From the NCBI GenBank assembly GCA_017518415.1, contig JAFWVC010000105.1, positions 1-34,812 on the forward strand: a DNA stretch of 34,812 bases, written 5' to 3'. The notes beneath the pieces are model-generated. The model was not told the origin of the DNA. It searched no databases and worked only from the letters and a program-made list of their open reading frames with translations. Positions 3 through 33,890 of the stretch are shown piece after piece. Numbering within the stretch: position 1 is the stretch's first letter; each line of letters begins with the position of its first letter. This stretch comes from Clostridia bacterium (GTDB taxonomy: Bacteria > Bacillota > Clostridia > Oscillospirales > Acutalibacteraceae). The position numbers and the translations under genes were made by a program.

Positions 3-1067
3 TACGTCTTTTCTTCCGTGGACACCTTTCCCAACATGGTACTGCGCGGCAGCGGCGAGAAAAAGACCATCCTGATTGCGACCCCGAAGACCAAGAAGAT
101 GCTCAACATCAACAGCGGGGGCAATGTGCAGGTAGACAACATTGAGTTCCGCATGGCGGCCGCGCCCAAATATTCGGCAACCTTTTACTTTGATACGGCG
201 GCCTCCTATGTAGAAAACGTGTATGTCACCAACTGCGATTTTTACGATGCCTACAATGCGTTTACCGATGCGCGCGCTGACAACGTGATGATGTTCATGC
301 ATTTTGAGGACATCAACTGCTATGACGCGCGCAGCTCCACCTTCGATATTCAGGACTTTGAAGGCTTCATCTTTATGAAGCGCCTGAATATCGACAACTC
401 CAACTCCTATGCCAAGCACGGGGTGGAGCCGTTTGCGGCCATCAAGATCGACGACGTGCGCGGCACCATCTTTGAGGAGATGACCGTGACCGGCGCCAAT
501 ACCGGGTCCGAGGACGAGATCGGTTTCCACCTGCCGTCCCGGGTGGCGAATATGGCCTCCGTCTGGTGGGACCGCGTGACCATCAAGAATATGGGCGGTT
601 ACGGGGTTTTGATGGGCGGCACCAAGGCGTGCGTGCTGTGCTCGGTCATTGATACGCAGATCCTCCACTGCGGCGGCGGCATCTGTGCCGAAGGGATCAA
701 CGAGCTGCAAGTGGACCGCGTGACGATCGACGGCAACAAAGAAAGCGTACTCGGTCTGGACGGTATTTCTTTAAAGAATACCGTATATACGCACTTGTTG
801 CATGTAGTATCCAAAAACAACAGCGGCAACGGGTTGTCGCTAATCTCCTCCAAATACAACACCGCTGCGGATTGCACCTTTACCGGTAACGGGGACCGCG
901 GGTTTATCGCGCGCGGGGGTGCTTACAACGAGCTGATTTCCTCCACCTGTACGGACAATGCCAACGGGCAGGTGTCGCTGGGAGAGGAAAACTCGCTGGT
1001 GGATCAGGTAGTATACCGGGCGGACGGAACAAAAGGGTCGCTGACGGAAAACGGTCGGTTCGATTGA
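3..1067 (+). CDS. Type A1 beta-helix protein, 5'-truncated by window edge
   Basis: The reading frame is open from base 3 and aligns with A2 (2724-4322) from about A2 residue 180 onwards; a GTG at 18 is internal, not the start. The missing part would hold the signal peptide and the two head motifs. What remains is a right-handed parallel beta-helix of the pectate-lyase-like superfamily, with a strongly conserved block rich in Asp and aromatic residues (FYDAYNAFTDAR, then HFEDINCYDAR, then FDIQDFEGF) and the type A motifs NMGGYGV and ILHCGGG. Such folds occur in polysaccharide lyases, glycoside hydrolases, tailspikes and adhesins, and no catalytic residues can be assigned. The stop codon lies 13 nt before the B1 start, which has a GAGGAGG site. 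By analogy with A2 it is probably exported and lipidated. Confidence 0.85.
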   Translation, partial: YVFSSVDTFPNMVLRGSGEKKTILIATPKTKKMLNINSGGNVQVDNIEFRMAAAPKYSATFYFDTAASYVENVYVTNCDFYDAYNAFTDARADNVMMFMHFEDINCYDARSSTFDIQDFEGFIFMKRLNIDNSNSYAKHGVEPFAAIKIDDVRGTIFEEMTVTGANTGSEDEIGFHLPSRVANMASVWWDRVTIKNMGGYGVLMGGTKACVLCSVIDTQILHCGGGICAEGINELQVDRVTIDGNKESVLGLDGISLKNTVYTHLLHVVSKNNSGNGLSLISSKYNTAADCTFTGNGDRGFIARGGAYNELISSTCTDNANGQVSLGEENSLVDQVVYRADGTKGSLTENGRFD

Positions 1068-1080
1068 GGAGGAAAAGAAG

Positions 1081-2688
1081 ATGAAACGTATTGCATTTCG
1101 CGTGATTGCTACTGCGTTGGCGTGTTGCTTTTTGTGGATGTGCACGGCCTGCGGGCCCGATACTCCCGAAGACCAAAACGAGGGGGCGGTTGATATGAAT
1201 CGATTCGATAACATCAGCATTTTATCCTTCGGCGCTGCGGCGGACGGCAGCGCGGATATTTCCGCGGCGGTGACGGCCGGCGCGGCAGAGCTCGGGGACG
1301 AGCAGGCGCTGTTTTTCCCGAACGGAACGTATCTGGTCGGGCAGGACCTGACGATCGACTGCCCGGTCAAACTGTCCGGCAACGTGTCCATCCGGGTCGC
1401 CGCCGGCAAAACGCTGACAATCAACGGCCTGTTCGGTGCGGCGATCCAATCCATCTTTTCCGGGGAGGGCGCCGTGCGCTTTACCAACGCCTCGGTGTGG
1501 GGGTATCCGCAATGGTTCGCAGCCGATATTGAGACAACGGTAACCACCGAACTGTTCCAGAAGGCGATCGATTCGCTGCGCTGCGTATATCTGCAAAACA
1601 ACACCTATACCTTTGCCGAATTGAATATCACCAGGCCGATATCCATTAAAGGGATCGGTGCGCGGCGCATCCGCGTCAACGCGGAGAGGGGAATCGGACA
1701 TCTGTTCAACATCCAGAGCGACGACGTTTCCATCGAAGGGCTGAACATCAAGATGGACAACGCACCGGACGCCGTGTGCTTCTATTTCAACACTCAAAAC
1801 AGAAACCTGAAAAACATTTCCATCCTTTCCTGCGCCGTGGCGGAAGGCATTACCAGCCTGACCGACGCCGATTCAGACGCCTATACCGTGTCCGACGTGC
1901 TGCTCAGCGCCGTTGACTTTACCAACGTGCGCGGTACGGCGGTGTATATGCACGACTTTGTCGGTAATATCAAGATGGTCGAGGTGGCCATCCACCGGCG
2001 CCAATACAATAATGCAAAGTATAACATGGGCGTGCCCGGCGCTATTTTTGAAAACGCCGACGGTTTGACGCTGGAGCACTTCGACGTCAACGGCGAGGCC
2101 AACATCGTCAACGGCGTGCAGAAGAAATGGGTGGCCGACAACATCGGCGGCCACGGGGCCGTGTTCCGCCATTGCAAAAACGTGCGCATCATCCGTGCGC
2201 TGATGGAGTACCTGGCCGGCACCGGCTGGGTCATCGAAGATTGCGAGAAGTTCTATATGGAAAACGTCGAATCCTACACCTTCCACGGGCGCGGGTTTGA
2301 CATCGACGGCCTGAAAGATTCCGAGATCCGCGTCGTCAAGGCGTGCGTGGCCGGCGGCGATACCGACCGTTCGGAGGAAAACTTCCGCTTTTGCAACTGC
2401 TCTGATCTTCTGATCGTCGGCATCATTACCAACGGCTCGCGGGACGCCGCCGTTTCCCTGCAGGGTTGCCGTAAGGTGACGGTGGACGCCATGAGCATAT
2501 TTGAGAAATCAGACCGGTCGATCGGCTTGCAGGATCTCGGCGGGAACGCCGACGTGGTCATCAACGGCCTGATCGATTCCGGCAACGCCAATACGGCGGT
2601 TGAATTGACCGGTACCGGTATTACGATCCGCGACGCCCTTCTCAAGAGCGGCACCTATCAGGAACTCTCCCAGGCCGGGAAGTACTGA
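1081..2688 (+). CDS. Type B1 beta-helix lipoprotein
   Basis: A 535-residue protein starting at ATG 1081 behind GGAGG. The signal peptide ends in a lipobox-like CTAC, with Cys24 the likely lipidated residue. The first head motif (from residue 51, GAAADGSAD) and the second (WFAADIE, from W145) are degenerate: the GDGxTDD signature has been lost. The body is a beta-helix with coils carrying Cys at the same place (FRHC, IEDC, CNC, LQGC). It follows A1 by 13 nt and is probably made with it. Export to the outer face of the cytoplasmic membrane is inferred from the signal. The substrate is unknown, and a structural or adhesive role is as likely as an enzymatic one. Confidence 0.88.
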   Translation: MKRIAFRVIATALACCFLWMCTACGPDTPEDQNEGAVDMNRFDNISILSFGAAADGSADISAAVTAGAAELGDEQALFFPNGTYLVGQDLTIDCPVKLSGNVSIRVAAGKTLTINGLFGAAIQSIFSGEGAVRFTNASVWGYPQWFAADIETTVTTELFQKAIDSLRCVYLQNNTYTFAELNITRPISIKGIGARRIRVNAERGIGHLFNIQSDDVSIEGLNIKMDNAPDAVCFYFNTQNRNLKNISILSCAVAEGITSLTDADSDAYTVSDVLLSAVDFTNVRGTAVYMHDFVGNIKMVEVAIHRRQYNNAKYNMGVPGAIFENADGLTLEHFDVNGEANIVNGVQKKWVADNIGGHGAVFRHCKNVRIIRALMEYLAGTGWVIEDCEKFYMENVESYTFHGRGFDIDGLKDSEIRVVKACVAGGDTDRSEENFRFCNCSDLLIVGIITNGSRDAAVSLQGCRKVTVDAMSIFEKSDRSIGLQDLGGNADVVINGLIDSGNANTAVELTGTGITIRDALLKSGTYQELSQAGKY

Positions 2689-2723
2689 CAGCGGCACCGA
2701 TCAAAAGAAGGGAGAAAGCTGAT

Positions 2724-4322
2724 ATGAAACGAGTGTTTCGCCGCATAGCGGTCTGCCTTTTGGCAGGATATCTGCTGTTGGCCTGCGCCGGTTGTGCAGA
2801 AAAGGAAAGACCGAATATGGACAAGATTCTTTTACCTTATCAGCTGATGGATGGTGATATCTCCGTCAAGGCATACGGGGCAACGGGGGACGGGCAAACC
2901 AGCGACACGCAGGCGGTCGCCGACGCCTGTCAGGCGGCCGAAGAGCATGGGAAACGGTTGTTTTTCCCGGCCGGGCAATATCAGCTGTCCGCCGCGCAGA
3001 TCACCTTCCCGCAGCAGGTCAACGTCGTGTTCGAGCAGGGCGCCGTGCTGCTGCTCGACGCGTGGAGCAAACTGGCTTTTAACGGCCCGATCTCGGCCGG
3101 CGATTATCAGATCTTCAGCGGGGATATCCGGATCCAGATCCGCTCCTCGGCGGCCGGCAACCCGATGTGGTTCGGCGCCAAGGGCGACGGCGTGACGGAT
3201 GACACCGAAGCGTTCAAGACGGCGTGGAAGGTGTTCAATCAGCTGGACGTGCCGTATACCGAGGCTGGCTATGTAATCACCTCCATTGATACCTTTAAGA
3301 ATATGGCGCTGCGGGGGAGCAGCCATGAAAAGACCATCCTGGTCGCTTCACCCAGAACGTATAAGCTCTTCAACGTCATCGGCGGGGACCTGTCGGTCAG
3401 CCATATCGAGTTTCGAATGGCGGCGGCGCCGAAGTATTCATCCGCGTTTTATTTCGACACGGCCACCTCGTATATCGAAAACGTCTATATCACCGACTGT
3501 GATTTTTACGACGCGTACAATGCCTTTACCGACGCGCGCGCGGAAAACGTGATGATGTTCATGCATTTTGAGGACATCAACTGCTACGACGCGCGCTGCT
3601 CCACCTTCGATATTCAGGACTTTGAGGGCTTCGTCTTTATGAAGCGCATGTATATCGACAATTCCAACTCCTACGCCAAGCACGGGGTGGAACCGTTCGC
3701 CGCCTTCCTGATCGACGACGTGCGCGGCGACAACTTTGAGGATATTACCGTCATCGGCGCGAACACCGGCTCGGAAAAAGAAATCGGCTTCCACGTGCCG
3801 GGTGCGGTGGCTATGATGTCCGCCTTGTCGTGGAAGCGCGTGACTATACGGAATATGGGCGGGTACGGCATCGTTTTCGGGCAGGTGATCTTGTCCGAAA
3901 TCGTCGACTCGCAGATCCTCCACTGCGGCGGCGGCGTCTGTGCCGAAGGATTGTTGGAAGTTCAGATAGATAACCTGACCGTCGACGGTAATCAAGACAG
4001 CTCACTCGGCCTGGACGGTATCTTCTTCAATAATACCGTCTACTCGCATCTGACCAACGTGGTATCCAAAAACAACGGCGGCAACGGGCTGCGGCTTAAC
4101 AACTCCAACTACAACCTGGTGAAAGACAGTGAGTTTTCCAATAATGCCGACCGCGGCGTTCTGCTGTCCGGCGGAAAATGCAACGGGCTGTTTTCCTCTA
4201 CCTGCCTGGACAACGCCAACGGTCAGGTGTCGCTGTTCGCCGCCGAATCGCTGGTCGATCAGGTGGTGTACCGGGCGGACGGAACGGTCGGCTCGATCAC
4301 GGACGTCGGCCGGTTTGATTGA
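2724..4322 (+). CDS. Type A2 beta-helix lipoprotein
   Basis: A 532-residue protein from ATG 2724 with a GGGAG site upstream. The signal peptide ends in CAGC (Cys24 likely lipidated; Cys21 possible). Two head motifs are intact: GATGDGQTSD at 52-61 and WFGAKGDGVTDD at 149-160, both typical of the Pectate_lyase_3 family. Between them lies the strand-rich segment ending in SAGDYQIFSG. The helix body is nearly the same as A1, including long identical nucleotide runs. Asp residues in HFEDINCYDARCSTFDI are conserved in all three A proteins and are the best candidates for a binding or active site, but this is inference. It follows B1 by 35 nt and precedes C1 by 83 nt. Confidence 0.9.
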   Translation: MKRVFRRIAVCLLAGYLLLACAGCAEKERPNMDKILLPYQLMDGDISVKAYGATGDGQTSDTQAVADACQAAEEHGKRLFFPAGQYQLSAAQITFPQQVNVVFEQGAVLLLDAWSKLAFNGPISAGDYQIFSGDIRIQIRSSAAGNPMWFGAKGDGVTDDTEAFKTAWKVFNQLDVPYTEAGYVITSIDTFKNMALRGSSHEKTILVASPRTYKLFNVIGGDLSVSHIEFRMAAAPKYSSAFYFDTATSYIENVYITDCDFYDAYNAFTDARAENVMMFMHFEDINCYDARCSTFDIQDFEGFVFMKRMYIDNSNSYAKHGVEPFAAFLIDDVRGDNFEDITVIGANTGSEKEIGFHVPGAVAMMSALSWKRVTIRNMGGYGIVFGQVILSEIVDSQILHCGGGVCAEGLLEVQIDNLTVDGNQDSSLGLDGIFFNNTVYSHLTNVVSKNNGGNGLRLNNSNYNLVKDSEFSNNADRGVLLSGGKCNGLFSSTCLDNANGQVSLFAAESLVDQVVYRADGTVGSITDVGRFD

Positions 4323-4405
4323 CCGGCGGCATACCGCGCTGTATTTGTGGTCCATGATCCGGACGGATCTATGCTATATCGATTATTTTGGAAAGGAAGA
4401 ACGAT

Positions 4406-5908
4406 ATGACCAGAAAAGCATTCTCTTTGTGGTTGGCCGTCTGCCTGACGGTCGTACTGGTTTGCACGGTCAGCTTTACCGGCTCCGCAGACAGCGGCTT
4501 GCTGGATGAAGCGTTTACCAAGCAATCGTACAGCGTCAAAACGGCGGGGGCCAAAGGCGACGGCAAAACCGACGATACCGAGGCAATCAAGCAGGCAGTT
4601 GCCAATGTGACAAAGGACGGGCAAGGCAGCGTCTTTTTCCCGGCCGGCACCTATTTGGTCAACGGCAAGCTGACGATCGCCAACGCGGCGGAACTGGTGT
4701 TTGCCAAGGGCGCCATCCTGAAAATCGGCGCTTCTGCCACGTTCAAGATGTTCGGTACGATCGTCGCGGGCGATTATCAGGTCTTTGACGTGCAGGGCAA
4801 GTGGTCCGGTTTCAACGGCGTGTCTGTCGGCAACCCGATCTGGTTCGGCGCCAAGGGCGACGGGAAGACCGACGATACGGCGGCCCTGCAAAAGACATTT
4901 GACATCTTTTATCAGGTCAACGTGCCGTATACGGCTGCCGGCTACAAGGTGAAGGATCTTGCCATTCCGCACAGCTGCCGCATCACCGGCGCCAACCGCG
5001 AAAAACAGGTCAAACTGATTGCGGCCGCCGGCACGCAGAAGCTGCTTACCTTCAAGAGCAGTTACATGGAGTTTTATTCCTTTGACCTGGAAATGGCGGC
5101 TGCTCCCACGGCGACGGCCATCTATCTGCAGGACGACGGCGTGATCGAGCAAAACCGCTTTGCGGACGTCACCATCAACGACGCTTACCGCGCGGTGGAA
5201 GACAAGACAAATACCGGCAGCAACATGGTCATTACGACGGAGTTCATCAATTTCAAATGCTATCGCGGCAAGAACTCAGCCTTTGTGTGCCACGGCATGT
5301 GGGGTTTCATGTTCTTTAAAAACATTTTGGTGGACTTCTCCGCCAGCACGGTGAAAATGGACTTCCCGGCGATCGCGATCGAAAACAATGCCGGTATGAT
5401 CATGGACCACGTAACGGTACTCGGCAACAGCAACGCAACCGCTAATGCGCACGGCATCTATACCAAAAAGTCCGAAGCTATGTGGTGGAGCCATTGCACC
5501 GTTGAAAACATGGGCGGTATGGGCTTCAAACACGAGAGAGGCGGCGGCGCCAACAACTGGTTCTATTTCCTTGACTGCACCGTCAAAAACTGCAAGGATT
5601 ATTCAATCGGCCTGTTTAACAGCTTCTCTGAATCGATCCACAACTGCAAGCTGGAAGGCGGCAAAGGTGTTTATGCTTCCGGCAACGTGTGCCAGATCAG
5701 CAACACAGTGATCTCCGGCAGCAGCGGCAACGGCATCACAAACGAAGCAAAAGAATCTGTCTTTACCGACCTGACGCTGAACAACAACAAAGGGTACGGC
5801 ATCGTTTCCACCGCCAATAATTGCCAGTTGTATCATATTCAGGGCACCGGAAACACCAACGACCTGGTGAAGGTTTCCGGCAACGGCAGCCAATACGTAG
5901 AGAGTTGA
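4406..5908 (+). CDS. Type C1 secreted beta-helix protein
   Basis: I start it at ATG 4406 (500 residues), 6 nt after GGAAAGGAAG, rather than at the TTG at 4388 that lies upstream in frame. The N-terminus is a Sec signal peptide (hydrophobic residues 7-23, then TGSADS) without a convincing lipobox, so the protein is probably released or held by its partners. Head motifs are GAKGDGKTDD (48-57) and WFGAKGDGKTDD (from W146). The body shares NMVITT, MWGFMF and NMGGMGF with C2 and more distantly with type A. The 83-nt gap before it holds no convincing promoter. B2 follows after 19 nt. Function beyond beta-helix polysaccharide-binding or -cleaving potential cannot be read from the sequence. Confidence 0.88.
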   Translation: MTRKAFSLWLAVCLTVVLVCTVSFTGSADSGLLDEAFTKQSYSVKTAGAKGDGKTDDTEAIKQAVANVTKDGQGSVFFPAGTYLVNGKLTIANAAELVFAKGAILKIGASATFKMFGTIVAGDYQVFDVQGKWSGFNGVSVGNPIWFGAKGDGKTDDTAALQKTFDIFYQVNVPYTAAGYKVKDLAIPHSCRITGANREKQVKLIAAAGTQKLLTFKSSYMEFYSFDLEMAAAPTATAIYLQDDGVIEQNRFADVTINDAYRAVEDKTNTGSNMVITTEFINFKCYRGKNSAFVCHGMWGFMFFKNILVDFSASTVKMDFPAIAIENNAGMIMDHVTVLGNSNATANAHGIYTKKSEAMWWSHCTVENMGGMGFKHERGGGANNWFYFLDCTVKNCKDYSIGLFNSFSESIHNCKLEGGKGVYASGNVCQISNTVISGSSGNGITNEAKESVFTDLTLNNNKGYGIVSTANNCQLYHIQGTGNTNDLVKVSGNGSQYVES

Positions 5909-5927
5909 GAGAGGAGGAGAGGATGAC

Positions 5928-7769
5928 ATGAAAACGAAAAGATTGTTAGCCTGGATGCTGGCCGCGGTCATGCTGTGTGTGCTGGTCGGCTGCACGGGGG
6001 ACCCGACGCCCGACAGTTCCACGCAGGACCCGACGCAACCATCCGCCACTCAGCCGACGGAACCGTCCGTTTCTCAACCCACTGACGGGGATCCGACCTC
6101 TTCTCAGACGGATGAGCCGCCTACGACGCCCTCGTCGGCACCTACTGATCCCACTGCTACCGATCCGACGGATCCGCCTACGGATCCGCCTACGAATCCG
6201 CCCACCAATCCGCCTACGCAGCCCTCGACGCCGCCGGCCAGCAATACTTCGGCCGACGTGAAAGAGCAGGGCGCTAAGGCCGACGGCAAGACGGATGATA
6301 CCGAAGCTCTCAAGAAGGCAATCAACGCCGTCAAGAGCAGCGGCAACGTCTACTTCCGCACCGGTACCTATCTGATCAAAGGGGCTGTGACCATTCCGAA
6401 GGACGTCGTGATGGTCATGCAGCGCGGCGCGGTGATCAAAGTCGACAGCGGCGCGACGCTGACGATCAACGGTTGGATCGAAGCGGCGGATTCGACCATT
6501 TTTGCCGGCACGGGTACCATCAACGGTACGCCGCGTTCAGCCGGTAACCCGCTGTGGTTCGGCGCGGCCGCCGACGGCAACACCGACGACGCACCCGCCT
6601 TCCAAAAAGCGGTCGATCTGTTTTCCTACGTGCGTGTGCCGTATCGTCCGAGCAAATACGCCCTTACCGGTACGGTGACGATCAAAAAGCCGGTCCAGCT
6701 GATCGGCGAAGGTACGAGCAAGGTCGATCTGACGATCAAGAGCACGGCGCAGGCCGGTGCAAAGGCGTTCGTGATCCGATCCAGCAACGTGGAGATCAAG
6801 AATTTCAAAATCGCCGGGGTACAGTCGACCCAAAAGACCAATCCGTCGTCGGTGTTCTATTTCGACTGCTCCTCCGGTAACCTGTCCCACATCACGCTGG
6901 AAAATATCTGGTCCGGCTGGACGGCTCAGCTGCTCGGCGACTCGCAGACCAGCGGCAAGACGATCACCGACGTGACGCTGAAAAATGTCACCGCCAACTA
7001 TACCTTCAACGCTCCCGGCATCCACATGACCAATTTCAAGAGCGGCATCGTGCTGGATACCGTGCTGGTCAACCAGGTCGGTATGAACCCGAGGGACGTT
7101 AATCAACCGCTGTTCATCATCGAAAACTGCACCGGGCTGACCGCCACTCAACTAGACGTAGCCGGCGGTTACACGTACATGGAAAACGGTAAGCCGCTGT
7201 ACGACGTGTACGGTTACGGCGCAGACGGCATCGTCTTCAAAAACTGCTCCAACATCACGGTGGACCGTTTCATGGCCGACTATATCAACGGCTACTGCAC
7301 CAAACTGATCAACTGCACCAATTTCAAAGCGTACAGCTGGGTCATGTCGCTGTATGAGGACGGTGCGCTGTATATGGAAAATTGCAGCGACTGTCAGATG
7401 GAGATCGTCAAGTTCAACGGTATCCGCGGCGGGCAGGAAGCGTGCGACAAGCACAACGGCACCGCGTTTGTGATGAAGAACTGCCAGAATAACACCTTTA
7501 TCAACGCCCTGTTCCGGGCGAACATGGCGGACGGTATGGAGATTATCAACTCCACGGATAACGTCTTTAAGAACTTTGTTTTCAGCTGGAACAACGGCTT
7601 CTCTTACAAAGAGAACGGCAGCAGCAACCGAAACACTTTGATCGGCATCGTGATTTCTTCGAGCACCAGCAAAGCGTTTGAGCAGATCGGTACCGAAAGC
7701 AAAGTGATCGGCCTGACGGTCGACGGCCAGGCCTACGGCACCAAGACCGGTGCTTTCAGCGTCAGCTGA
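5928..7769 (+). CDS. Type B2 beta-helix lipoprotein with Pro/Thr stalk
   Basis: A 613-residue protein, ATG 5928 behind GAGGAGGAGAGG. The signal peptide ends with lipobox LVGC, Cys22 being lipidated. Residues about 23-108 are a Pro/Thr/Ser/Asp-rich linker ending in four DPPT/NPPT repeats. This is a flexible stalk that could cross the cell wall, and it is the longest of its kind in the array. The head motifs are GAKADGKTDD (from 115) and WFGAAADGNTDD (from W210), slightly diverged. The helix body shows regularly spaced coils with Asn-Cys (ENC, KNC, INC, ENC, KNC) about 20-25 residues apart, suggesting a stacked ladder. It is closely coupled to C1, and a hairpin lies after its stop. Confidence 0.9.
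   Translation: MKTKRLLAWMLAAVMLCVLVGCTGDPTPDSSTQDPTQPSATQPTEPSVSQPTDGDPTSSQTDEPPTTPSSAPTDPTATDPTDPPTDPPTNPPTNPPTQPSTPPASNTSADVKEQGAKADGKTDDTEALKKAINAVKSSGNVYFRTGTYLIKGAVTIPKDVVMVMQRGAVIKVDSGATLTINGWIEAADSTIFAGTGTINGTPRSAGNPLWFGAAADGNTDDAPAFQKAVDLFSYVRVPYRPSKYALTGTVTIKKPVQLIGEGTSKVDLTIKSTAQAGAKAFVIRSSNVEIKNFKIAGVQSTQKTNPSSVFYFDCSSGNLSHITLENIWSGWTAQLLGDSQTSGKTITDVTLKNVTANYTFNAPGIHMTNFKSGIVLDTVLVNQVGMNPRDVNQPLFIIENCTGLTATQLDVAGGYTYMENGKPLYDVYGYGADGIVFKNCSNITVDRFMADYINGYCTKLINCTNFKAYSWVMSLYEDGALYMENCSDCQMEIVKFNGIRGGQEACDKHNGTAFVMKNCQNNTFINALFRANMADGMEIINSTDNVFKNFVFSWNNGFSYKENGSSNRNTLIGIVISSSTSKAFEQIGTESKVIGLTVDGQAYGTKTGAFSVS
6171..6218 (+). repeat. Four 12-nt repeats coding DPPT/NPPT
   Basis: Four in-frame units, two exact copies of gatccgcctacg followed by two variants (aatccgcccacc, aatccgcctacg), encode DPPT-DPPT-NPPT-NPPT in the stalk of the B2 lipoprotein. 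In-frame 12-nt repeats can expand or shrink without breaking the gene, so stalk length may vary between strains (inference). Confidence 0.85.
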
Positions 7770-7782
7770 CCCACAAACCTCG

Positions 7783-7834
7783 TCAGAAAGCCCCGTCCCT
7801 GCTTCCGCAGGAGGCAGGGACGGGGCCCTTCTGA
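7783..7834 (+). terminator. Long hairpin between B2 and C2, no T-tract
   Basis: A 13-bp perfect GC-rich stem (7790-7802 with 7814-7826) sits inside a further 6-bp stem (7783-7788 with 7829-7834), separated by a small internal loop; the apical loop is 11 nt. The 3' side continues into cttctgatgc with no run of T, so it is not a classical intrinsic terminator. It may be a decayed terminator, an RNA-processing or stability element, or an attenuator setting lower expression of C2-B3. Confidence 0.5.
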
Positions 7835-7861
7835 TGCATTAAACAGCAAAGGAGAAACAAA

Positions 7862-9352
7862 ATGAAACATTTGAAGGGGCTCCTTTCCGTGGCGGCTGCA
7901 GTGGGGCTTTGTCTGGCTTGCGCGAGCGTAGCCGGCGCCGCCCCGCAAAAGGCCACCGCGTTCAACGCGGCGTATGCCGTCAACGTCAAGGATTACGGCG
8001 CCGTCGGCGACGGAACGACGGATGACGTGGAAGCTATCCAGAAAGCGATCCGGGCCGCCACACAGACAGAGGAAGAAGGCTCGATCTTTTTCCCGGCCGG
8101 TACGTATCGCCTGGCCGACAGCCTGTCGTTTGAACCTTTTCTGGAAGTCGTTTTTGACACCGGTGCCAAACTGATGGTGGAAAAAAACCTGAACATCCGG
8201 GCCCAGATCGTCGCCGGCGACCAGATCCTTTTCGAAGGCAAGGGCAATATTGTCGGCACCGCTGCCAACGACAGCGGCAATCCGGTCTGGTTCGGTGCCA
8301 AAGGCGACGGTGTGACGGATGACACGCTGGCTTTTGAGCGCACGATCAATATGTTCAAAAAGATCGACATCCCGTATCGGGAAGCCGGCTACGTTATCTC
8401 GAACCTCGAACTGAAAGGCGGAGCCGTTTTCCAGGGGGCCGACCCGGAAAAAAAGGCAAAACTGATCGCCACCGAAAAGACCAAGAGCCTGCTGACCATC
8501 AGCAGCAGTTATACCTCCGTACGTAACCTGACCCTTGAAATGGGCAAGAGTAAGTACGGCACCGGTATTTACTTCGACGACAACAAAAGCGGTATCGAGC
8601 AGTGCCTGCTGAGCAATATCGACATCAATGACGCCTATAACGCCGTACGGGATGCCGACCACGAAAGCAATATGGTCATTACGACCAAGATGGTCGGGCT
8701 CCATTGTACCAACGGCCGCAACACCGCCATTGAGATGAACGACATGTGGGGCTTCATCTTCCTGACGGACAGCGTGATTGACTTTTCCGGCAGTTCTGTG
8801 GAACTGACCTTCCCGCTGGTGTTTATGAAGGACAACGCCGGCTTCATCGGCACCAATTTGTTTATCAACGGCAAGCAGGGCGCATCCGACGCAAAGAACA
8901 ATGGGTTTGAAACAAGCAACTCGGTCGCCGTCTGGTTTGACAACTGCGACATTTCCAACGTCGGCGGCTGCGGGTATAAGTTGGAAAACAACGCGGTATA
9001 CAACTATCTGCTCAACTGCGACGTTTCCGACTGCGGGTTGTACGGCGTGGCCGTGAACGGCTGGGACTTCCAGACGGAAAACCTGAACGTGAAAAATTGC
9101 GGCTCCGACGGCGTGTATCTGAGGGGCGGCCACATGCAGCTGACCAACACCGCCGTTTCCGACTGCGGCCGCAACGGCGTGACCAGCCAGGCATCCTACG
9201 TACAGCTTGTGTCGCTCAACACCAGCCGGAACGGGTCGTTCGGTTTGAGCGATACCGGTACGCGCAATACCTTCACGTCGATTTCCGGCGACGGAAACGG
9301 CAACGGTTTGACCAGCGTATCCGAAGAGAGTTTGCTGGTATCGGCAGAATAA
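7862..9352 (+). CDS. Type C2 secreted beta-helix protein
   Basis: A 496-residue protein, ATG 7862 with AAAGGAG upstream. The Sec signal peptide ends at an AxA-type site (VAGAAPQ, about residue 25-27), so it should be cleaved by signal peptidase I and not lipidated. Head motifs are GAVGDGTTDD (from G46) and WFGAKGDGVTDD (from W143), both intact. The body matches C1 (INDAYNAV, NMVITT, MWGFIF, NVGGCG). It follows the hairpin after B2 and is followed 13 nt later by B3, the same tight C-to-B spacing as in the C1-B2 pair. It is probably extracellular. The beta-helix fold is well supported; enzymatic activity is not. Confidence 0.88.
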   Translation: MKHLKGLLSVAAAVGLCLACASVAGAAPQKATAFNAAYAVNVKDYGAVGDGTTDDVEAIQKAIRAATQTEEEGSIFFPAGTYRLADSLSFEPFLEVVFDTGAKLMVEKNLNIRAQIVAGDQILFEGKGNIVGTAANDSGNPVWFGAKGDGVTDDTLAFERTINMFKKIDIPYREAGYVISNLELKGGAVFQGADPEKKAKLIATEKTKSLLTISSSYTSVRNLTLEMGKSKYGTGIYFDDNKSGIEQCLLSNIDINDAYNAVRDADHESNMVITTKMVGLHCTNGRNTAIEMNDMWGFIFLTDSVIDFSGSSVELTFPLVFMKDNAGFIGTNLFINGKQGASDAKNNGFETSNSVAVWFDNCDISNVGGCGYKLENNAVYNYLLNCDVSDCGLYGVAVNGWDFQTENLNVKNCGSDGVYLRGGHMQLTNTAVSDCGRNGVTSQASYVQLVSLNTSRNGSFGLSDTGTRNTFTSISGDGNGNGLTSVSEESLLVSAE

Positions 9353-9365
9353 GGAGGGGAGAAGT

Positions 9366-11012
9366 ATGAATATGAGAAAAATCTTCCAAACAGCGGCTTT
9401 GCTGTTGACTGTCTCTGTGCTGCTCCTCTCTTTTGGCGGATGTCAGCCGGCTGATCCCGGATCTTCTCCGGACAGCGGAACAGATCCACAGAAAAATGCC
9501 GTTCTCGGCGAGACGTGTATCGGGTACGGTCCCAAAGCCGAAACGCCCTCCTTCGCCGCATCGGCCGACAACGTGGCCGATCTGGCGGCGCAAGGCGTCA
9601 AAAAAGACGGGCAGGCTGACGATGCCGAAGCTTTCCGCAAAGCGATCGACGCCGTCAAAGGCAAGGGATATATCTATCTGGAAGCCGGCCGGTATCGGAT
9701 CGGCTCCGACCTGACCGTGCCGGAAGACATGGTGCTGGCCTTTAACCGCGGCGCCCGGCTGGTCATTGACAGCGGCGCGACGCTGACGATCAACGGCTTT
9801 GTCGAGGCGGGCCGGTATCAGATCTTTGACGGCGACGGTACCGTCAGCGGCAGCATCCGCAGCGCCGGGTACCCGCACTGGTTCGGTGATCTGTCCGGTT
9901 CGGACGACACGGCTGCAATGCAGAAGGCGGTAGACGCCTGCCGGTACGTGCAGCTGCCCGCCGGTACCAATTACGATTTCGGCACCATCCACCTCAGAAA
10001 ACCGGTCACGGTCACCGGTACCGGCGCATATGATGTTGCCGTCAATTTCAGCAGCAAGGCGGACGTGCTGTTTTCCATCGAATCCGACAATGTAACGCTG
10101 CAATATCTGACGCCGAACGCGGGCAAAGGGGCCGGTGCTACGACGATTTTGTTCAACAACGCGGACAAAGATCTGTCCGGCATTACCCTTTACCGGATCA
10201 GGACCGCCGGCGTCGGCCGGATGATCGATACCGCCTCCGACGCGCATCACGTCACGAAGGCGGAGATGGTAAAAGTTTTTGTGGACAGCAGCCGGGATAC
10301 CGGTGTCCATTTGGTCAACTTCAAAAACGACATTACTTTGGATGACGTGCTGGTCAGCGACCTCGGCACGCCGGGCAAAGTGGATTTTCCGCTGTTCCTG
10401 TTTGAAAACTGCGAAGGCATGTATTTCATCAACACGGACGCGGCCGGCGGTGCCACCAAGGGGACCGGAGGGGACGGCTTCTATTTCAAAAATTGCAAGA
10501 AGGTCGAAGTAGGCCGTTCGATGGTGGATTACACCAACGGTTTCGGGCTGGTGCTGGACAACTGCTCCGATATGGTGCTCAACCACTGGATCAACTCGCT
10601 GTGCGAGAAAGGCTGCCTGTGCATCAAGGATAGCCGGGATATCGAGTTCCACATCACCAACGCGAACGGCAACGGCACAAAGCCCGGCGTGAAGGACTAT
10701 GACGCCGCTATCGTGGTCGAGAGCAGCAGCAACATTCTGTTCAACAGCGCTTTTATTCAGTCGCATTGCGGCGACGGCCTGCGGATCAAGGATTCCGACC
10801 ATATTACCGTGAATGACGCCATCATCACCAACATGGCCGGCGGTGGCTATGTGGAAGAAGGTACCAGCGACAACAATACCATCAAAGGGTTGACGATCAC
10901 CAATGTTTCCGGCACCGCCTTTCAGCAGGTCGGTGCACACAGCGTGACGTATGCGCTGATATGCGGCGACAAGGTAATGGAAGCCAAGGTCGAGGGCGCA
11001 GCCACCCGGTAA
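9366..11012 (+). CDS. Type B3 beta-helix lipoprotein
   Basis: A 548-residue protein, ATG 9366 behind AAGGAGGGGAG; an in-frame ATG at 9372 is less well placed. The signal peptide ends in FGGC with Cys26 as the likely lipid anchor, followed by a short Pro/Ser/Asp-rich linker. The head motifs are diverged: GVKKDGQADD (from G77) and WFGDLSGSDD (from W172). The helix body carries the type B Asn/Cys coils (FENC, FKNC, LDNC) and the segment SGATLTING shared word for word with B2, indicating common descent. It is tightly spaced after C2. A strong hairpin follows its stop and separates it from A3. Confidence 0.88.
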   Translation: MNMRKIFQTAALLLTVSVLLLSFGGCQPADPGSSPDSGTDPQKNAVLGETCIGYGPKAETPSFAASADNVADLAAQGVKKDGQADDAEAFRKAIDAVKGKGYIYLEAGRYRIGSDLTVPEDMVLAFNRGARLVIDSGATLTINGFVEAGRYQIFDGDGTVSGSIRSAGYPHWFGDLSGSDDTAAMQKAVDACRYVQLPAGTNYDFGTIHLRKPVTVTGTGAYDVAVNFSSKADVLFSIESDNVTLQYLTPNAGKGAGATTILFNNADKDLSGITLYRIRTAGVGRMIDTASDAHHVTKAEMVKVFVDSSRDTGVHLVNFKNDITLDDVLVSDLGTPGKVDFPLFLFENCEGMYFINTDAAGGATKGTGGDGFYFKNCKKVEVGRSMVDYTNGFGLVLDNCSDMVLNHWINSLCEKGCLCIKDSRDIEFHITNANGNGTKPGVKDYDAAIVVESSSNILFNSAFIQSHCGDGLRIKDSDHITVNDAIITNMAGGGYVEEGTSDNNTIKGLTITNVSGTAFQQVGAHSVTYALICGDKVMEAKVEGAATR

Positions 11013-11019
11013 CACAACG

Positions 11020-11056
11020 AGGGATCGGCACAGTTCTGCTGTGCCGATCCCTTTAT
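11020..11056 (+). terminator. Hairpin terminator-like element between B3 and A3
   Basis: A perfect 14-bp stem (11020-11033 with 11039-11052) with a 5-nt loop (ttctg) is followed by only three T residues and then A/T-mixed sequence. It could act as a leaky terminator that lets part of the transcription continue into the signal-less A3 gene, whose ribosome-binding site begins about 10 nt further on. Confidence 0.6.
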
Positions 11057-11079
11057 GCCCCTTAAAAGGAGGAACGTCT

Positions 11080-12492
11080 ATGAAAGAGGTACGGCTTGCC
11101 GGCAACGTGACCGGCGAACAACTGGATGCTCTGCTGTGTCCCGCGGCGCCGGGCGCGCGCGTCATCATCTGCGGCGTTTGCCGTTTTTCCGGTTGTTATA
11201 CCTTTTCTTCCAAGCATACGGTGATTTTCGGCACAGACGCATGCCTCTTTTTGGAAGAGCAGGCTGTGCTGTGCTTTGACTGCGTCATAGAGGCCGGGAA
11301 TACCCGTCTGTTTGACGGCCCCGGCACGGTAGAAATCCACTCGATGGCGCAGGGCAATCCGTTCTGGTTCGGCGCCAAGGGCGACGGCGTGACGGACGAT
11401 ACGGCGGCCTTTGTCCGTACGTGGCAGGTGTTCAACCAGATCACCCTGCCGTATACCGAAAACGGATACGTGCTCGACCGGATTGAGTTGCTGCCCGACC
11501 GGGTGCTGCAAGGGCAGCCGGACCAGCACCCGACCGTCAAGGCGGCACCCGGATGCACCAGGCTGTTTCACGTCACACGCGGGCAATGTGCGGTACATCA
11601 TATCCGGTTCGATATGGCGGCGGCCGCTGAACCGTCAACGGCATTCTTCTTTGATACGTCAGTAAAAAAAGAGGGCAGTATCGGCGTATCCCACTTTACC
11701 ATCACGCACTGTGAGTTCTACGACGCCTACCATGTGTTTACCGATGCGCAAAATACGGCTTTGATGTTATTCATGCATTTTGAGGATATTCTGTGTAAAG
11801 ACGGCCGCCATTCCACCTTTGATATCGAGGACTTTGAGGGTTTTATTTTCCTGAAACGTTTTACCATCGACAATGCGGATTCGATGCGCAAACACCATCT
11901 GACAAAAGCCTTTCCGGCGGTGGATATCGACGACGTACGCGGTACCATTTTTGAGGAAATGACGGTGATCGGCAGCAACTCCGGCCAGCCGGAAGAAATC
12001 GGCTTTTTGTTGCCGGGCAGCGTAGCACTGATGGCTTCACTTTGGTGGGACCGTGTGACGATCAAAGACATGGGCGGCTACGGAATTGTTTTCGGGCTTG
12101 CCGATACGCCGGATTCCGACGAAAACCGCATATCGACGGTGTTGTGCTCGCTGATCCATACCGACATCCTGCATTGCGGAGGAGGCGTGCTGGTGGATCG
12201 ATCCTGGGACCTGCAGATGGACGACGTGCGCATCGACACGCAGGGGTATCATGTGCCGGGAACCGCCGGAATCAGATTGAGCCGTTCCCGCAATTCTCAT
12301 CTGCTGAACGTGGTGTGCCGGGGGCATGGCGGTGACGGGATCGCGCTGGACCGGTGCGAACACATTACCACGGCCGGCTGTACACTTTGCGGCAACAGCG
12401 GGTTCGGATACAGCGACAGCGGGGGCACGGGCAACCTGATGACGCGCTGTTTGCTGGAACACAACGAGGCCGGCTCCGTTCACAAGGCATAA
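11080..12492 (+). CDS. Type A3 beta-helix protein without signal peptide
   Basis: I place the start at ATG 11080 (470 residues), 7 nt after AAAAGGAGG; the frame is open back to 11041 but those codons overlap the upstream hairpin. The N-terminus (MKEVRLAGNVTGEQ) has no signal peptide, no lipobox and no first GDG motif, although a strand-rich cap remains (EAGNTRLFDG). The second head motif WFGAKGDGVTDD is intact (from W96) and the body is clearly type A (EFYDAYHVFTDAQ, HFEDILCKDGRHSTFDIEDFEGF, NMGGYG counterpart DMGGYGIVFG, ILHCGGG). As written it would stay in the cytoplasm, unlike its exported relatives. Either it works on imported or internal glycans, leaves by another route, or is a remnant that lost its export signal. 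Confidence 0.85.
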   Translation: MKEVRLAGNVTGEQLDALLCPAAPGARVIICGVCRFSGCYTFSSKHTVIFGTDACLFLEEQAVLCFDCVIEAGNTRLFDGPGTVEIHSMAQGNPFWFGAKGDGVTDDTAAFVRTWQVFNQITLPYTENGYVLDRIELLPDRVLQGQPDQHPTVKAAPGCTRLFHVTRGQCAVHHIRFDMAAAAEPSTAFFFDTSVKKEGSIGVSHFTITHCEFYDAYHVFTDAQNTALMLFMHFEDILCKDGRHSTFDIEDFEGFIFLKRFTIDNADSMRKHHLTKAFPAVDIDDVRGTIFEEMTVIGSNSGQPEEIGFLLPGSVALMASLWWDRVTIKDMGGYGIVFGLADTPDSDENRISTVLCSLIHTDILHCGGGVLVDRSWDLQMDDVRIDTQGYHVPGTAGIRLSRSRNSHLLNVVCRGHGGDGIALDRCEHITTAGCTLCGNSGFGYSDSGGTGNLMTRCLLEHNEAGSVHKA

Positions 12493-25363: not shown

Positions 25364-26161
25364 ATGGCGGAAACCAACCGGATCACCGGCGAAGGCGGCT
25401 GCAAAGACGCCGTCTGCATCGACGCCGGGCGTGTATACGACAGTTGTTCCGACAAAGACTGTACGGAAGACCTGCGCGTGTATTTCACGGCAGAGGACCA
25501 GGCAGTCATCGACAGCGCAATCAGCGCGCGGGCCAAAAGCGCGGAAGTCATCACCACTTACATTGATGTGGAAACGCTCCCTTTTAACCGGGGGTATTAT
25601 TCCTGCGACCTGACTTTCTTCTTTGAAGTCAAGGTGGAAGTGTTTGCCAGCCGCACCGTCCCGAGCAGTATCCTCAACGGGCTTGCGGTATTCTCCAAAA
25701 AAGTGATTTTGTATGGCAGTGAAGGCAACGTGCAGGTGTTCAGCAGCGAGTACCGCGAGAACGGGCGGGACCCGCAGGAGATGCCGCGGCGGAATATGCC
25801 GCGCTGCGTGGTGCAGGTGGCGGAGCCGGTCGTGCTCAATACCCGCCTGGTACCGGTGTGCGACTGTCCGGCCGAATATACCTGCACCATTCCGGAAGCG
25901 TTGCAGACCCGTTACGGAGCACCGTTCGCCGACCCCGAAGACGGCAAGGCCGTGCTGGTGACGCTCGGCATTTTCAGCATCGTGCAGCTGGTGCGCAACG
26001 TGCAGATGCTTGTGCCGGTGTACGATTATTGTATTCCGGAGCATGAATGCGCGCCGACCGGCGACAACCCCTGCGACCTGTTCAAGAAAATGTGCTTCCC
26101 GGTGGACGACTTTTTCCCGCCGCAGAATGCGGGCAGCAACTGCGGCTGCAACCGCAGCTGA
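25364..26161 (+). CDS. Conserved Cys-rich clostridial protein, function unknown
   Basis: A 265-residue protein, ATG 25364 after GGGAGGG. It has no signal peptide or membrane segment. It holds about 17 Cys, mostly near the two ends: GGCKDAVCID and SCSDKDC at the start, CDCPAEYTC in the last third and CGCNRS at the very end. The middle (VETLPFNRGYYSCDLTFFFEVKVE, in two parts of conserved type, and KKVILYGSEGNVQVF) is beta-rich. I recall similar proteins across Clostridia, annotated only as hypothetical, and cannot check this here. Cys-rich cytosolic proteins with terminal Cys pairs are common among spore-coat components, and a sigma-K-like sequence lies upstream, so a sporulation role is a reasonable but unproven guess. 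It ends before a strong bidirectional terminator. Confidence 0.85.
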   Translation: MAETNRITGEGGCKDAVCIDAGRVYDSCSDKDCTEDLRVYFTAEDQAVIDSAISARAKSAEVITTYIDVETLPFNRGYYSCDLTFFFEVKVEVFASRTVPSSILNGLAVFSKKVILYGSEGNVQVFSSEYRENGRDPQEMPRRNMPRCVVQVAEPVVLNTRLVPVCDCPAEYTCTIPEALQTRYGAPFADPEDGKAVLVTLGIFSIVQLVRNVQMLVPVYDYCIPEHECAPTGDNPCDLFKKMCFPVDDFFPPQNAGSNCGCNRS

Positions 26162-26171
26162 ACGGTACGAC

Positions 26172-26199
26172 AAAAAGCCCCCTGATCAGGGGGCTTTTT
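26172..26199. terminator. Perfect bidirectional terminator
   Basis: A fully palindromic 28-nt sequence: A5, gccccctga, tcagggggc, T5. It serves the Cys-rich protein gene on the plus strand and tsaD on the minus strand, whose stop codon is 10 nt away. Confidence 0.93.
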
Positions 26200-26208
26200 A
26201 GCGGTTGC

Positions 26209-27216
26209 TTATTGTTCGATCGGCAGGGAGGCAAAGGCGTTAAGCGACAGATCGGCCGTATGCCCGGCCAGATATTCGTAATACGCCTGTGCGCCGATCA
26301 TGGCGGCGTTGTCGCCGCACAAAGCGAGCGGCGGCATATACAGCCGCAGGCCGGCTTTTTCGCAGGCGGCGGTCATGGCCGCCCGCAGGCCGGAGTTGGC
26401 CGACACCCCGCCGGCCAGCACAACGGTGCCGGCGCCCGTCTCGGCTGCGGCGCGCATGGTATGGTCCGTCAATATTTCTGCCACGGTGTGCTGCAGACTG
26501 GCGCACATGTCCGGCACGCAAATGCTTTCACCCTTTTGTTCCGCCTGGTGCAGCCGGTTGATCACGGCCGTTTTCAGGCCGGAAAAGCTGAAATCATACG
26601 GGTTGCCGTCCACGGCGGGCCGGGGCAGGGGAAAGGCGTGCGGATTGCCCTGCTGCGCCATACGGTCCAGCGCGATGCCGCCCGGATACGGCATGCCCAT
26701 GGAACGGGCCGCTTTGTCAAAGCATTCGCCGGCCGCGTCATCCCGCGTCTGGCCGATCATACGCAATCCGGTGTAGTCATCCAGATAAACCAGATGGCTG
26801 TGCCCGCCCGACACGACCAAGCAGAGGAAGGGCGGTTTCAGTTCCGGATGGGCCAGATAATTGGCGGCGATGTGGCCGCGCAGATGATGCACGGGAATCA
26901 GCGGCTTGCCGGCCGAAAAAGCCAGGCCTTTGGCAAAATTGACGCCCACCAGCAGCGCGCCGATCAGCCCCGGGGCGTAGGTAACGGCCACGGCGTCTAC
27001 GGCGTCGAGCCCAAGGCCTGCCTGCTGTAAAGCCTGCTTCGTCACAAGGGAAATTGCCTCCGTATGCCGGCGGCTGGCGATTTCCGGCACAACGCCGCCG
27101 TATATCCGGTGCTCTTCCACCTGCGTGGCCACGACGTTGGATAACAGCCGGCGGCCGTCTTCCACCACGGCGGCGGCCGTTTCGTCGCAGGAGGATTCGA
27201 TGGATAAGATGATCAT
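26209..27216 (-). CDS. tsaD: tRNA t6A transferase TsaD
   Basis: I choose the ATG at 27216 (335 residues), 10 nt after AAAGGCGG, over the TTG two codons upstream. The Kae1/TsaD signature is complete: LSIESSCDET at the start, the metal-binding H111-x3-H115 in HHLRGH, VVSGGHSHLV, LAGGVSANSGLR, and CGDNAAMIGAQA near the end. TsaD moves the threonylcarbamoyl group from threonylcarbamoyl-adenylate to A37 of tRNAs reading ANN codons, working with TsaB and TsaE, whose genes are not in this window. It is a stand-alone unit with its own promoter (27253-27281) and faces lgt divergently. The product is the substrate of MtaB encoded nearby. Confidence 0.96.
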   Translation of the reverse strand: MIILSIESSCDETAAAVVEDGRRLLSNVVATQVEEHRIYGGVVPEIASRRHTEAISLVTKQALQQAGLGLDAVDAVAVTYAPGLIGALLVGVNFAKGLAFSAGKPLIPVHHLRGHIAANYLAHPELKPPFLCLVVSGGHSHLVYLDDYTGLRMIGQTRDDAAGECFDKAARSMGMPYPGGIALDRMAQQGNPHAFPLPRPAVDGNPYDFSFSGLKTAVINRLHQAEQKGESICVPDMCASLQHTVAEILTDHTMRAAAETGAGTVVLAGGVSANSGLRAAMTAACEKAGLRLYMPPLALCGDNAAMIGAQAYYEYLAGHTADLSLNAFASLPIEQ

Positions 27217-30737: not shown

Positions 30738-30767
30738 TTGACAACCAGCCGAAAAATATGGTATTCT
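30738..30767 (+). promoter_or_regulatory. Predicted sigma-A promoter for the GH38 gene
   Basis: Perfect TTGACA at 30738-30743, 18-nt spacer, TATTCT at 30762-30767, 33 nt before the start codon. Confidence 0.7.
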
Positions 30768-30800
30768 CAAACCGCAACATATCGACAGGAGGTATATATC

Positions 30801-33800: not shown

Positions 33801-33890
33801 GAAAAAACGGCCGACGTACCGCTGGAAGAGGGGAAAGCGACCGTTTACTTCAAGCCGTTTGAAATCAAGACATTCAAACTCGCTTTTTGA
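30801..33890 (+). CDS. Glycoside hydrolase family 38 alpha-mannosidase
   Basis: I start at ATG 30801 (1029 residues), behind AGGAGG; the longer open frame back to 30738 would overlap the promoter. GH38 features in order: zinc-binding and substrate motif GHSHLDTAW (His254, Asp256), the nucleophile in WLPDTFGYSA (Asp367), GYGDGGGGP, and the third-domain metal His in NEFHDILPGTS (His569). The C-terminal half is the beta-sandwich of GH38 (DNWDINYD, FGFLDRPTTEN). The length is normal for the family. There is no signal peptide, so it acts in the cytoplasm, presumably trimming imported alpha-mannosides with retention of configuration. It stands alone between terminator and promoter, with no transporter or sugar kinase next to it, so its substrate cannot be narrowed. 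Confidence 0.94.
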   Translation: MLIPHSVFDKLNLICAEYEKLRFADVTELPCERFDTYAHFRTLPAGEYTPIRRGDPFGDDDLTMWVRSVFIMPQELDGKPVFVHYENTGMEALLEVDGVHLGGLDSNHHFVRITPCAAGGRQHVLGIESYSGRTLQGVHIHDVPGADAATVVTKNCRRFAGVFLSVENPVVTQLVFDLRTLLQQYSIFEDHHFRKARLANCLQGVFTDLYALPEEHTPEEYMPGVQKAIQRMRPLLQDHNGPSAPECITMGHSHLDTAWRWTLEETKRKCGRTYSSMVNLLDQYPDFCFIQSSPYHAELTKDNYPDVFERILYHYRRGKWEPNGAMYIEPDCNLTSGESLARQLLIGQRTTRELFDGYTADTLWLPDTFGYSAALPQLLRLAHVKYFCTTKLYWNETNRFPYDTFYWKGLDGECRVLAHFHKVHFHPDPATLDSFWKAIVQHKDVQNAFLAPFGYGDGGGGPMHEMIEEALRLRDLEGTPKTRFGTVSECMTQLEKGSDAIPEYCGELYLEVHRGTLTSLAKTKKLHRRAEQNLHHAEYLCAVAMKAGMPYPADAFTRLWKTLLVNEFHDILPGTSIAPVNDRCHQELQQIIDETDEWIKTAAAVLTQPAGGYTLFNTLGWDRTSLLKLPIPIGMQAEGAVTQNVQDVFGHAYQLCAGLRIPAGGSAYVTAVPEQEAERSASPFRYDGRTLTTPFAVITFEKDGTIASWIDRPSGRQLVREGGRFNGFSVGEDAPTYWDNWDINYDQKFKRHADNRLLSRTVTADGPLSLRIESCYLVAEASRITQQMVVYATTPQVDFETIVDWKERHVLLKTVFDTSIFSDTVRNETQFGFLDRPTTENNSEQRAKFEVSQHKWSDLSDSGFGVALLNDCKYGIAARGGSLSLSLLKSGTHPDPRADEGRHTFIYSLLPHNGPFSVETVVRPAYELNYAPIVQAGARPAAQTVPLCVDCADVIVETLKKAEDENAWIVRCYEAGRMGTFANFRFDPCVRTVEEVDLLEEKTADVPLEEGKATVYFKPFEIKTFKLAF

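Follow-up and report, generated by a model that had tools for sequence, protein, structure and literature searches.

Paired paralogous beta-helix proteins in a Clostridia genome: a predicted two-subunit and probably carbohydrate-active complex

An array of eight beta-helix genes

The window, meaning the whole stretch of 34,812 nucleotides analyzed here (contig C66, bases 1-34812), belongs to a Clostridia genome bin (G000) of 1.70 Mb in 121 contigs that is 99.4% complete. Within bases 3-12492 it carries eight beta-helix genes, all on the plus strand and all with open reading frames, in the order A1 B1 A2 C1 B2 C2 B3 A3. Using the best-supported starts (ATG 4406 for C1 and ATG 11080 for A3), the gaps are 13 nt (A1-B1), 35 nt (B1-A2), 83 nt (A2-C1), 19 nt (C1-B2), 92 nt (B2-C2), 13 nt (C2-B3), and 67 nt (B3-A3). 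The original prediction had described this array from the letters alone, and rechecking of the open reading frames and start codons reproduced its order and all seven gaps exactly. The features are as follows.

3..1067, plus strand: A1, A/C family (375 bits with the A/C profile versus 81 with the B profile); 5' end lost at the contig start; 68% identity with A2
1081..2688, plus strand: B1, B family (668 bits versus 161 with the A/C profile); N-terminal signal, lipobox ambiguous under the strict rule; partner A1 (13 nt)
2724..4322, plus strand: A2, A/C family; lipobox Cys21; unpaired; duplicate of A1 (75% DNA identity across 1063 bp)
4406..5908, plus strand: C1, A/C family (649 bits); Sec-type signal; partner B2 (19 nt)
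5928..7769, plus strand: B2, B family (700 bits); lipoprotein (VLVGC); Thr/Pro-rich linker; partner C1
7862..9352, plus strand: C2, A/C family; Sec-type signal; partner B3 (13 nt)
9366..11012, plus strand: B3, B family; lipoprotein (SFGGC); partner C2
11019..11053, plus strand: strong, terminator-like hairpin with a short T tail between B3 and A3; the same stem is flagged on the minus strand at 11020-11052
11080..12492, plus strand: A3, A/C family; without signal peptide; unpaired

From their N-termini, A2 is probably a lipoprotein and A3 probably cytoplasmic. The 73 nt around the hairpin fold at -34.6 kcal/mol, compared with -15.9 in shuffles (z -7.1), and this element could be a terminator or attenuator of A3. 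Given the strength and position of this hairpin, A3 probably stands as a unit of its own or is attenuated.

For most window genes, the scores with the A/C and B profiles, which were built from proteins of the window and its genome, lie several hundred bits apart, a clean split of the two types. Divergence within the families is high, most member pairs being 23-42% identical. A and C had been proposed as separate types, yet a tree of 46 domains merges them into a single family, with B as the other; both are reciprocally monophyletic (SH-aLRT 100). Judged by sequence, A/C and B are thus two clades of one old duplication.

Pairing across genomes

The window's genome holds 13 A/C and 11 B domains, together roughly 2% of its 1.7 Mb, and these form 11 A/C+B pairs in which only A2 and A3 of the window take no part. 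When starts with a Shine-Dalgarno-like site are chosen, the pairs have gaps of -4 to 19 nt and are found in both gene orders. Outside the array, the window's genome contains the following loci.

C118: A then B
C55: A then B, 4 nt
C57: B then A, 4 nt
C14: two pairs, B then A (15 nt), then A then B
C16/C88: A then B over a contig break (388-base end overlap, 99% identical)
C96: fused gene of 1162 aa, first half B-type, second half A/C-type
C112: fused gene of 1229 aa, B-type first half, A/C-type second half

A second genome, G047 (the sheep-colon Clostridia MAG RGIG5554), has nine A/C and nine B domains, all of them paired: seven separate pairs, each B then A, and two fusions (C51 and C56), one per order. 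Taken together, the two genomes have four natural fusions, three B-A and one A-B. In the buffalo-rumen Clostridia MAG RGIG8085, an A gene and a B gene form one pair, A first, 9 nt apart. Neighboring A/C and B genes are found again at all other complete family loci of the window's genome and at all loci of G047, which takes the pattern of the array beyond chance, and at the complete loci of both genomes B is never without an A/C neighbor. The distribution is patchy. Among 394 genomes of the same taxonomic order, the A/C profile matches four, namely the window's genome, G047, and two more distant ones, G059 and G080, and in a 391-genome sample of the class, the B profile matches the window's own genome alone.

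One locus departs from this layout. In the BRZ bin94 genome (L040, 118-4487), an A/C gene, a solute-binding-protein-like gene (so called from its sequence, with no family match), and a B gene follow one another. We considered it as a counter-example to pairing and rejected it: its A and B sit in non-matching parts of the trees, which suggests that they are not partners, and the locus most likely combines halves of two different pairs. An arrangement of the genes at random in related genomes, in both order and spacing, had been named as an outcome that would speak against paired genes. Order indeed varies, whereas adjacency is constant except at L040.

Several loci show features of their own. 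The contig ends C16/C88, C118/C116, and C14/C3 break within beta-helix genes with end overlaps that are 93-99% identical; the second C14 pair (93%) and the B gene of C118 (97%) reach such ends. Strain variation in the bin is probably the cause. At L038, the A/C and B genes are in frame and would form a single chain if the TGA were read as an amino acid; the remaining pairs suited to structure prediction are out of frame. In the C16/C88 pair (L009:316-4655, L014:1-1651), the A/C partner has an additional C-terminal jelly-roll-like domain, and several jelly-roll-like domains plus a List-Bact repeat (PF09479) precede the B helix.

G059 and G080 (L125-L129, L133, L134) harbor a second, more distant paired beta-helix system made up of families X and Y. 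Six of its pairs consist of separate genes, X followed by Y, and three are X-Y fusions; the subtrees are mirrored, and the invariant residues differ from those of A/C-B. In the tree, A/C and B group together relative to X and Y, though on long branches.

Mirrored trees of the two families

Over 22 pairs, the distances among A/C domains and those among their B partners correlate with r=0.78, compared with a null of 0.016 +/- 0.096 from within-genome partner shuffles (0 of 20,000 as high). Leaving out the fusions gives r 0.80. For the seven separate same-contig pairs of the window's genome, the value is 0.76, which 145 of 20,000 shuffles reach. Of the 21 pairs that are adjacent or fused, 10 have the true partner as the best distance match, and all but two have it among the top three (G047_C25a comes 13th).

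The same groupings return in both families: the three B-A fusions; C14b with RGIG8085; C14a with G047_C8, then C57; A1B1/C118/G047_C11b/C25b/C25c, joined by the A-B fusion C51; and C1B2/C2B3/C55/C16. The A/C tree requires a minimum of three changes of gene order and the B tree six, with adjacency retained.

Fold and invariant residues

The beta-helix nature of the proteins, part of the original prediction, was borne out by profile searches and structure prediction alike. A curated profile search matches PF12708 and/or PF13229 in all eight window proteins. The AlphaFold2 models of C2 (pLDDT 89.7, pTM 0.84, 13-row alignment) and B3 (pLDDT 85.7, pTM 0.83, 11-row alignment) each show a right-handed beta-helix preceded by an extra N-terminal module. 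Nearest to C2 is phi29 gp12 (Z 38.1, rmsd 2.3 A over 345 residues). The Sf6 tailspike scores Z 35 with C2 and 36 with B3, and CBA120 TSP3 is also among the best neighbors; tailspike-type neighbors overall reach Z 34-38 (C2) and 33-36 (B3) at rmsd 2.1-2.8 A over 324-365 residues. AlgE epimerase modules score about 36, the beta-helix adhesin PfbA is high-scoring too, and inulin fructotransferases rank lower for both models (Z about 28-31). A common fold proves no function.

By sequence, curated NCBI enzyme models match the eight window proteins weakly, far under their cut-offs and mostly in the N-terminal module, and this is also the part that tail-spike PHROGs match. GH55 is the top PDB sequence-profile match for A/C; similarity over the full length of both GH55 helical domains is absent, the best stretches covering about 60 residues of the N-terminal GDG..DDT module.

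Despite the divergence, a few residues of the helix body hardly change. Their codons lie at the following positions.

8651..8653, plus strand: C2 Asp264, 23/23 in A/C; homologous to B Asp288
8717..8719, plus strand: C2 Arg286, 22/23 in A/C (one Lys)
8780..8782, plus strand: C2 Asp307, 23/23 in A/C; unconserved in B
10227..10229, plus strand: B3 Asp288, 21/21 in B
10437..10439, plus strand: B3 Asp358, 21/21 in B; unconserved in A/C
10515..10517, plus strand: B3 Arg384, 21/21 in B; unconserved in A/C

A/C Asp264 and B Asp288 occupy one ancestral position, kept in 44/44 domains. The remaining ones are family specific: at the position of A/C Asp307, B has Ser, Asn, Thr, or Asp, and at that of B Asp358, A/C has mostly Thr. 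The A/C helix body also retains Trp358 and Gln404. Subunits with divided roles would look like this.

Localization signals

Lipoboxes were called with a strict PROSITE-type rule. Only the B partner carries one in C1B2, C2B3, and RGIG8085, and only the A/C partner does in C25a, C25b, and C25c of G047; in C11a, C11b, and C45 of the same genome, both partners do. The four fusions each have an N-terminal one. Lipoprotein-like signals outside the strict pattern occur in B1, the A genes of C118 and C57, and the B genes of C55 and C14b. Under this looser reading, at least one of the two proteins is anchored in every exported pair, a pattern that would follow if the anchored partner holds the soluble one. 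The orthologous pairs C14a and G047_C8 lack a signal on A/C and B alike, so that here, too, the partners agree in compartment.

The picture of an exported A/C protein with a lipid-anchored B, as initially proposed, fits pairs such as C1B2 and C2B3 but falls short as a general rule: the anchor can also be on A/C or on both partners, and one conserved pair is signal-less; nor is anchoring a trait of B alone, given the lipobox of A2. The broader proposal of co-translated partner pairs that diversified side by side is, by contrast, strongly supported by the 1:1 pairing in both orders, the fusions, the mirrored trees, and the reciprocal anchors.

Genomic neighbors and missing pathways

Genes that neighbor the A/C and B loci include a LacI regulator (C55), solute-binding proteins (G047 C11, L040), a GH127 gene (RGIG8085), and a GH38-like gene that adjoins the fused B-A gene on C96 (L130). 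The window itself encodes a GH38 alpha-mannosidase (30738-33890), 18 kb from the array.

Other families are missing. GH28 polygalacturonase (PF00295) has no match in the array proteins or in the genomes G000, G047, G059, and G080, and GH88/GH105 (PF07470) is found in none of these four MAGs, which are 85-99% complete. This disfavors an ordinary pectin/uronate-lyase pathway.

Relation to known systems

The closest beta-helix carbohydrate enzymes are monomers or homotrimers. Sugar grooves between two beta-helix subunits are found in the Sf6 tailspike, CBA120 TSP3, the PhiAB6 tailspike, and inulin fructotransferase (PMC6517402, PMC5314372), and the catalytic Glu362 and Asp426 of TSP3 even lie on different subunits (PMC6517402). 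GH55 enzymes, in turn, have two beta-helices per chain and bind glucan between them (PMC10637969). By analogy, the A/C-B couples and their fusions would fit this two-helix or inter-subunit groove plan, with two different chains.

None of these systems is the same, however. Sf6/TSP3-type tailspikes and phi29 gp12 share with A/C and B a right-handed beta-helix with a GDG..DDT start; yet the Sf6/TSP3-type tailspikes are homotrimers from one gene and sit on virions, whereas A/C and B are 1:1 paralogues, bacterial lipoproteins or secreted proteins, with the extra N-terminal module. The two-helix plan of the GH55 exo/endo-beta-1,3-glucanases is also that of the natural A/C-B fusions, but GH55 is a single gene, whose split form was not met in the searches made, and it resembles A/C merely in the short stretch described above. 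Inulin fructotransferase/DFA-IIIase (GH91) is a beta-helix with an inter-subunit site (PMC5314372). It, too, is a single gene, with 8-13% identity to our models, a likeness at the level of fold; no sequence-level relation to A/C or B was found. The A-module of AlgE-type mannuronan C5-epimerases resembles A/C and B in fold and N-terminal motif; it is a single chain with its own site.

GH136 lacto-N-biosidase has a similar gene organization: its two subunits are separate proteins in Roseburia hominis, whereas Eubacterium ramulus has them fused (PMC7335108). As proposed for A/C and B, both subunits are needed, whether or not they are fused; the organisms are again Clostridia, and the catalytic part is a beta-helix (PMC7335108). 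The GH136 partner, though, is an alpha-helical domain with a new fold, whereas the partner in A/C-B is a second, predicted beta-helix. The original prediction knew of no described system with the layout of the array. We likewise found none in the open-access literature and the family libraries that this comparison covered.

A predicted heteromeric complex and its alternatives

Taken as a whole, the data are explained best, in our moderately confident view, by an obligate A/C:B hetero-oligomer that is most likely a carbohydrate-active enzyme. Its parts differ in strength. A physical A/C:B complex is strongly inferred from the genomic and phylogenetic patterns and is very likely. That it is an enzyme rather than a pure binder, with an activity that is predicted, seems probable; this is favored by the few invariant Asp/Arg, the signal-less (presumably cytoplasmic) pair, and the LacI, solute-binding-protein, and glycosidase neighbors. 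That A/C and B chains share the candidate site is more tentative, with a little less than an even chance.

In such a complex, A/C and B would be two subunits, 1:1 or in a multiple thereof, both paralogous right-handed beta-helices, and co-translation or fusion would lead to stoichiometric assembly. The exported complex would be fixed to the outer face of the membrane via a lipid anchor that either partner, or both, would supply, while the conserved signal-less pair would act inside the cell. Its activity would be of the hydrolase type rather than that of a classical pectin/uronate lyase. The binding or catalytic site would be built from the separately kept Asp/Arg sets of A/C and B and would probably lie in the groove between the two rods, comparable to Sf6-type tailspikes, inulin fructotransferase, and the two-helix GH55 enzymes. 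Whole pairs would then have been duplicated several times, giving complexes of differing specificity.

Two alternatives, both of which we regard as unlikely to a similar degree, keep the partnership and change its purpose. Catalysis could reside in one partner, with the other serving as a dedicated folding partner or as a pseudo-enzyme needed to complete the site; the GH136 lacto-N-biosidase of Clostridia, where genes are likewise separate or fused (PMC7335108), is an example. The GDG..DDT modules, which are fuller in A/C than in B, would agree with that. Yet both partners are beta-helices with a common ancestor, and a decayed pseudo-enzyme would not be expected to keep, as B does, two Asp and one Arg of its own fully invariant. 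Alternatively, the pairs might be non-enzymatic, forming an adhesin or glycan-capture complex on the surface that offers oligosaccharides to transporters. Lipid anchors, the adhesin PfbA among the structural neighbors, the one pair with extra surface-type domains and a List-Bact repeat, and the solute-binding-protein neighbors all point that way; the conservation of a signal-less pair across two genera does not, and Asp/Arg that are strictly invariant despite great divergence suggest chemistry.

Improbable in our eyes is the absence of any physical partnership, the genes being operon paralogues that were repeatedly block-duplicated. Block duplication alone can give mirrored trees. Also at odds with the preferred complex are the two window A/C genes without partner (A2 and A3) and the pairs in which some other domain is a better distance match than the true partner. 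However, order flips while adjacency stays, and four fusions in both orders exist, which together count against block duplication as the sole cause of the mirrored trees; B is, moreover, always beside A/C at the complete loci of G000 and G047, and the anchors are reciprocal. Least credible by far is a domesticated phage tailspike locus. The nearest folds are phage tailspikes and tail-spike PHROGs match the N-terminal module, but the proteins carry Sec or lipoprotein signals, no phage genes were recognized in the 34.8 kb window, and tblastn against phages returned module-sized matches only (at most 21% of the query) and no full-length homologues.

Building on the preferred reading of an A/C:B enzyme, we see as possible, though rather doubtful, a new class of heteromeric beta-helix enzymes. 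A homo-oligomer with inter-subunit sites would have been duplicated, the copies would have kept complementary half-sites, and the two-rod unit would have been copied and re-fused both ways, yielding a panel of glycan-cutting complexes on the surface of gut Clostridia and, once, inside the cell. The candidate half-sites would be Asp264/Arg286/Asp307 in A/C and Asp288/Asp358/Arg384 in B. If so, the X/Y system of G059 and G080 would be a parallel case. Strictly paired paralogues in a large, patchy family with fusions in both orders would make a clear natural case of a homomer turning into a heteromer. The proposal leads to testable predictions on which partners fit and which residues complete the site, and it indicates unassigned glycan-active complexes in Clostridia of the ruminant-gut type.

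Additional observations

At L012 (9989-15513), a LacI-type regulator and a membrane-anchored surface protein (P0002, no Pfam match) are followed by C and B with 4 nt gaps, an arrangement that, by its predicted genes, looks like a carbohydrate operon. Several large neighboring open reading frames at L013 and L122 were considered as context and set aside, as they look like antisense shadows and are uninformative.

Further along the window, bases 25364-27030 contain two overlapping open reading frames of 265 and 327 aa with no Pfam match. Bases 26172-26199 form a perfect 28-base palindrome, and perfect palindromes of 26-30 bases are also present in L012, L014, and L132.
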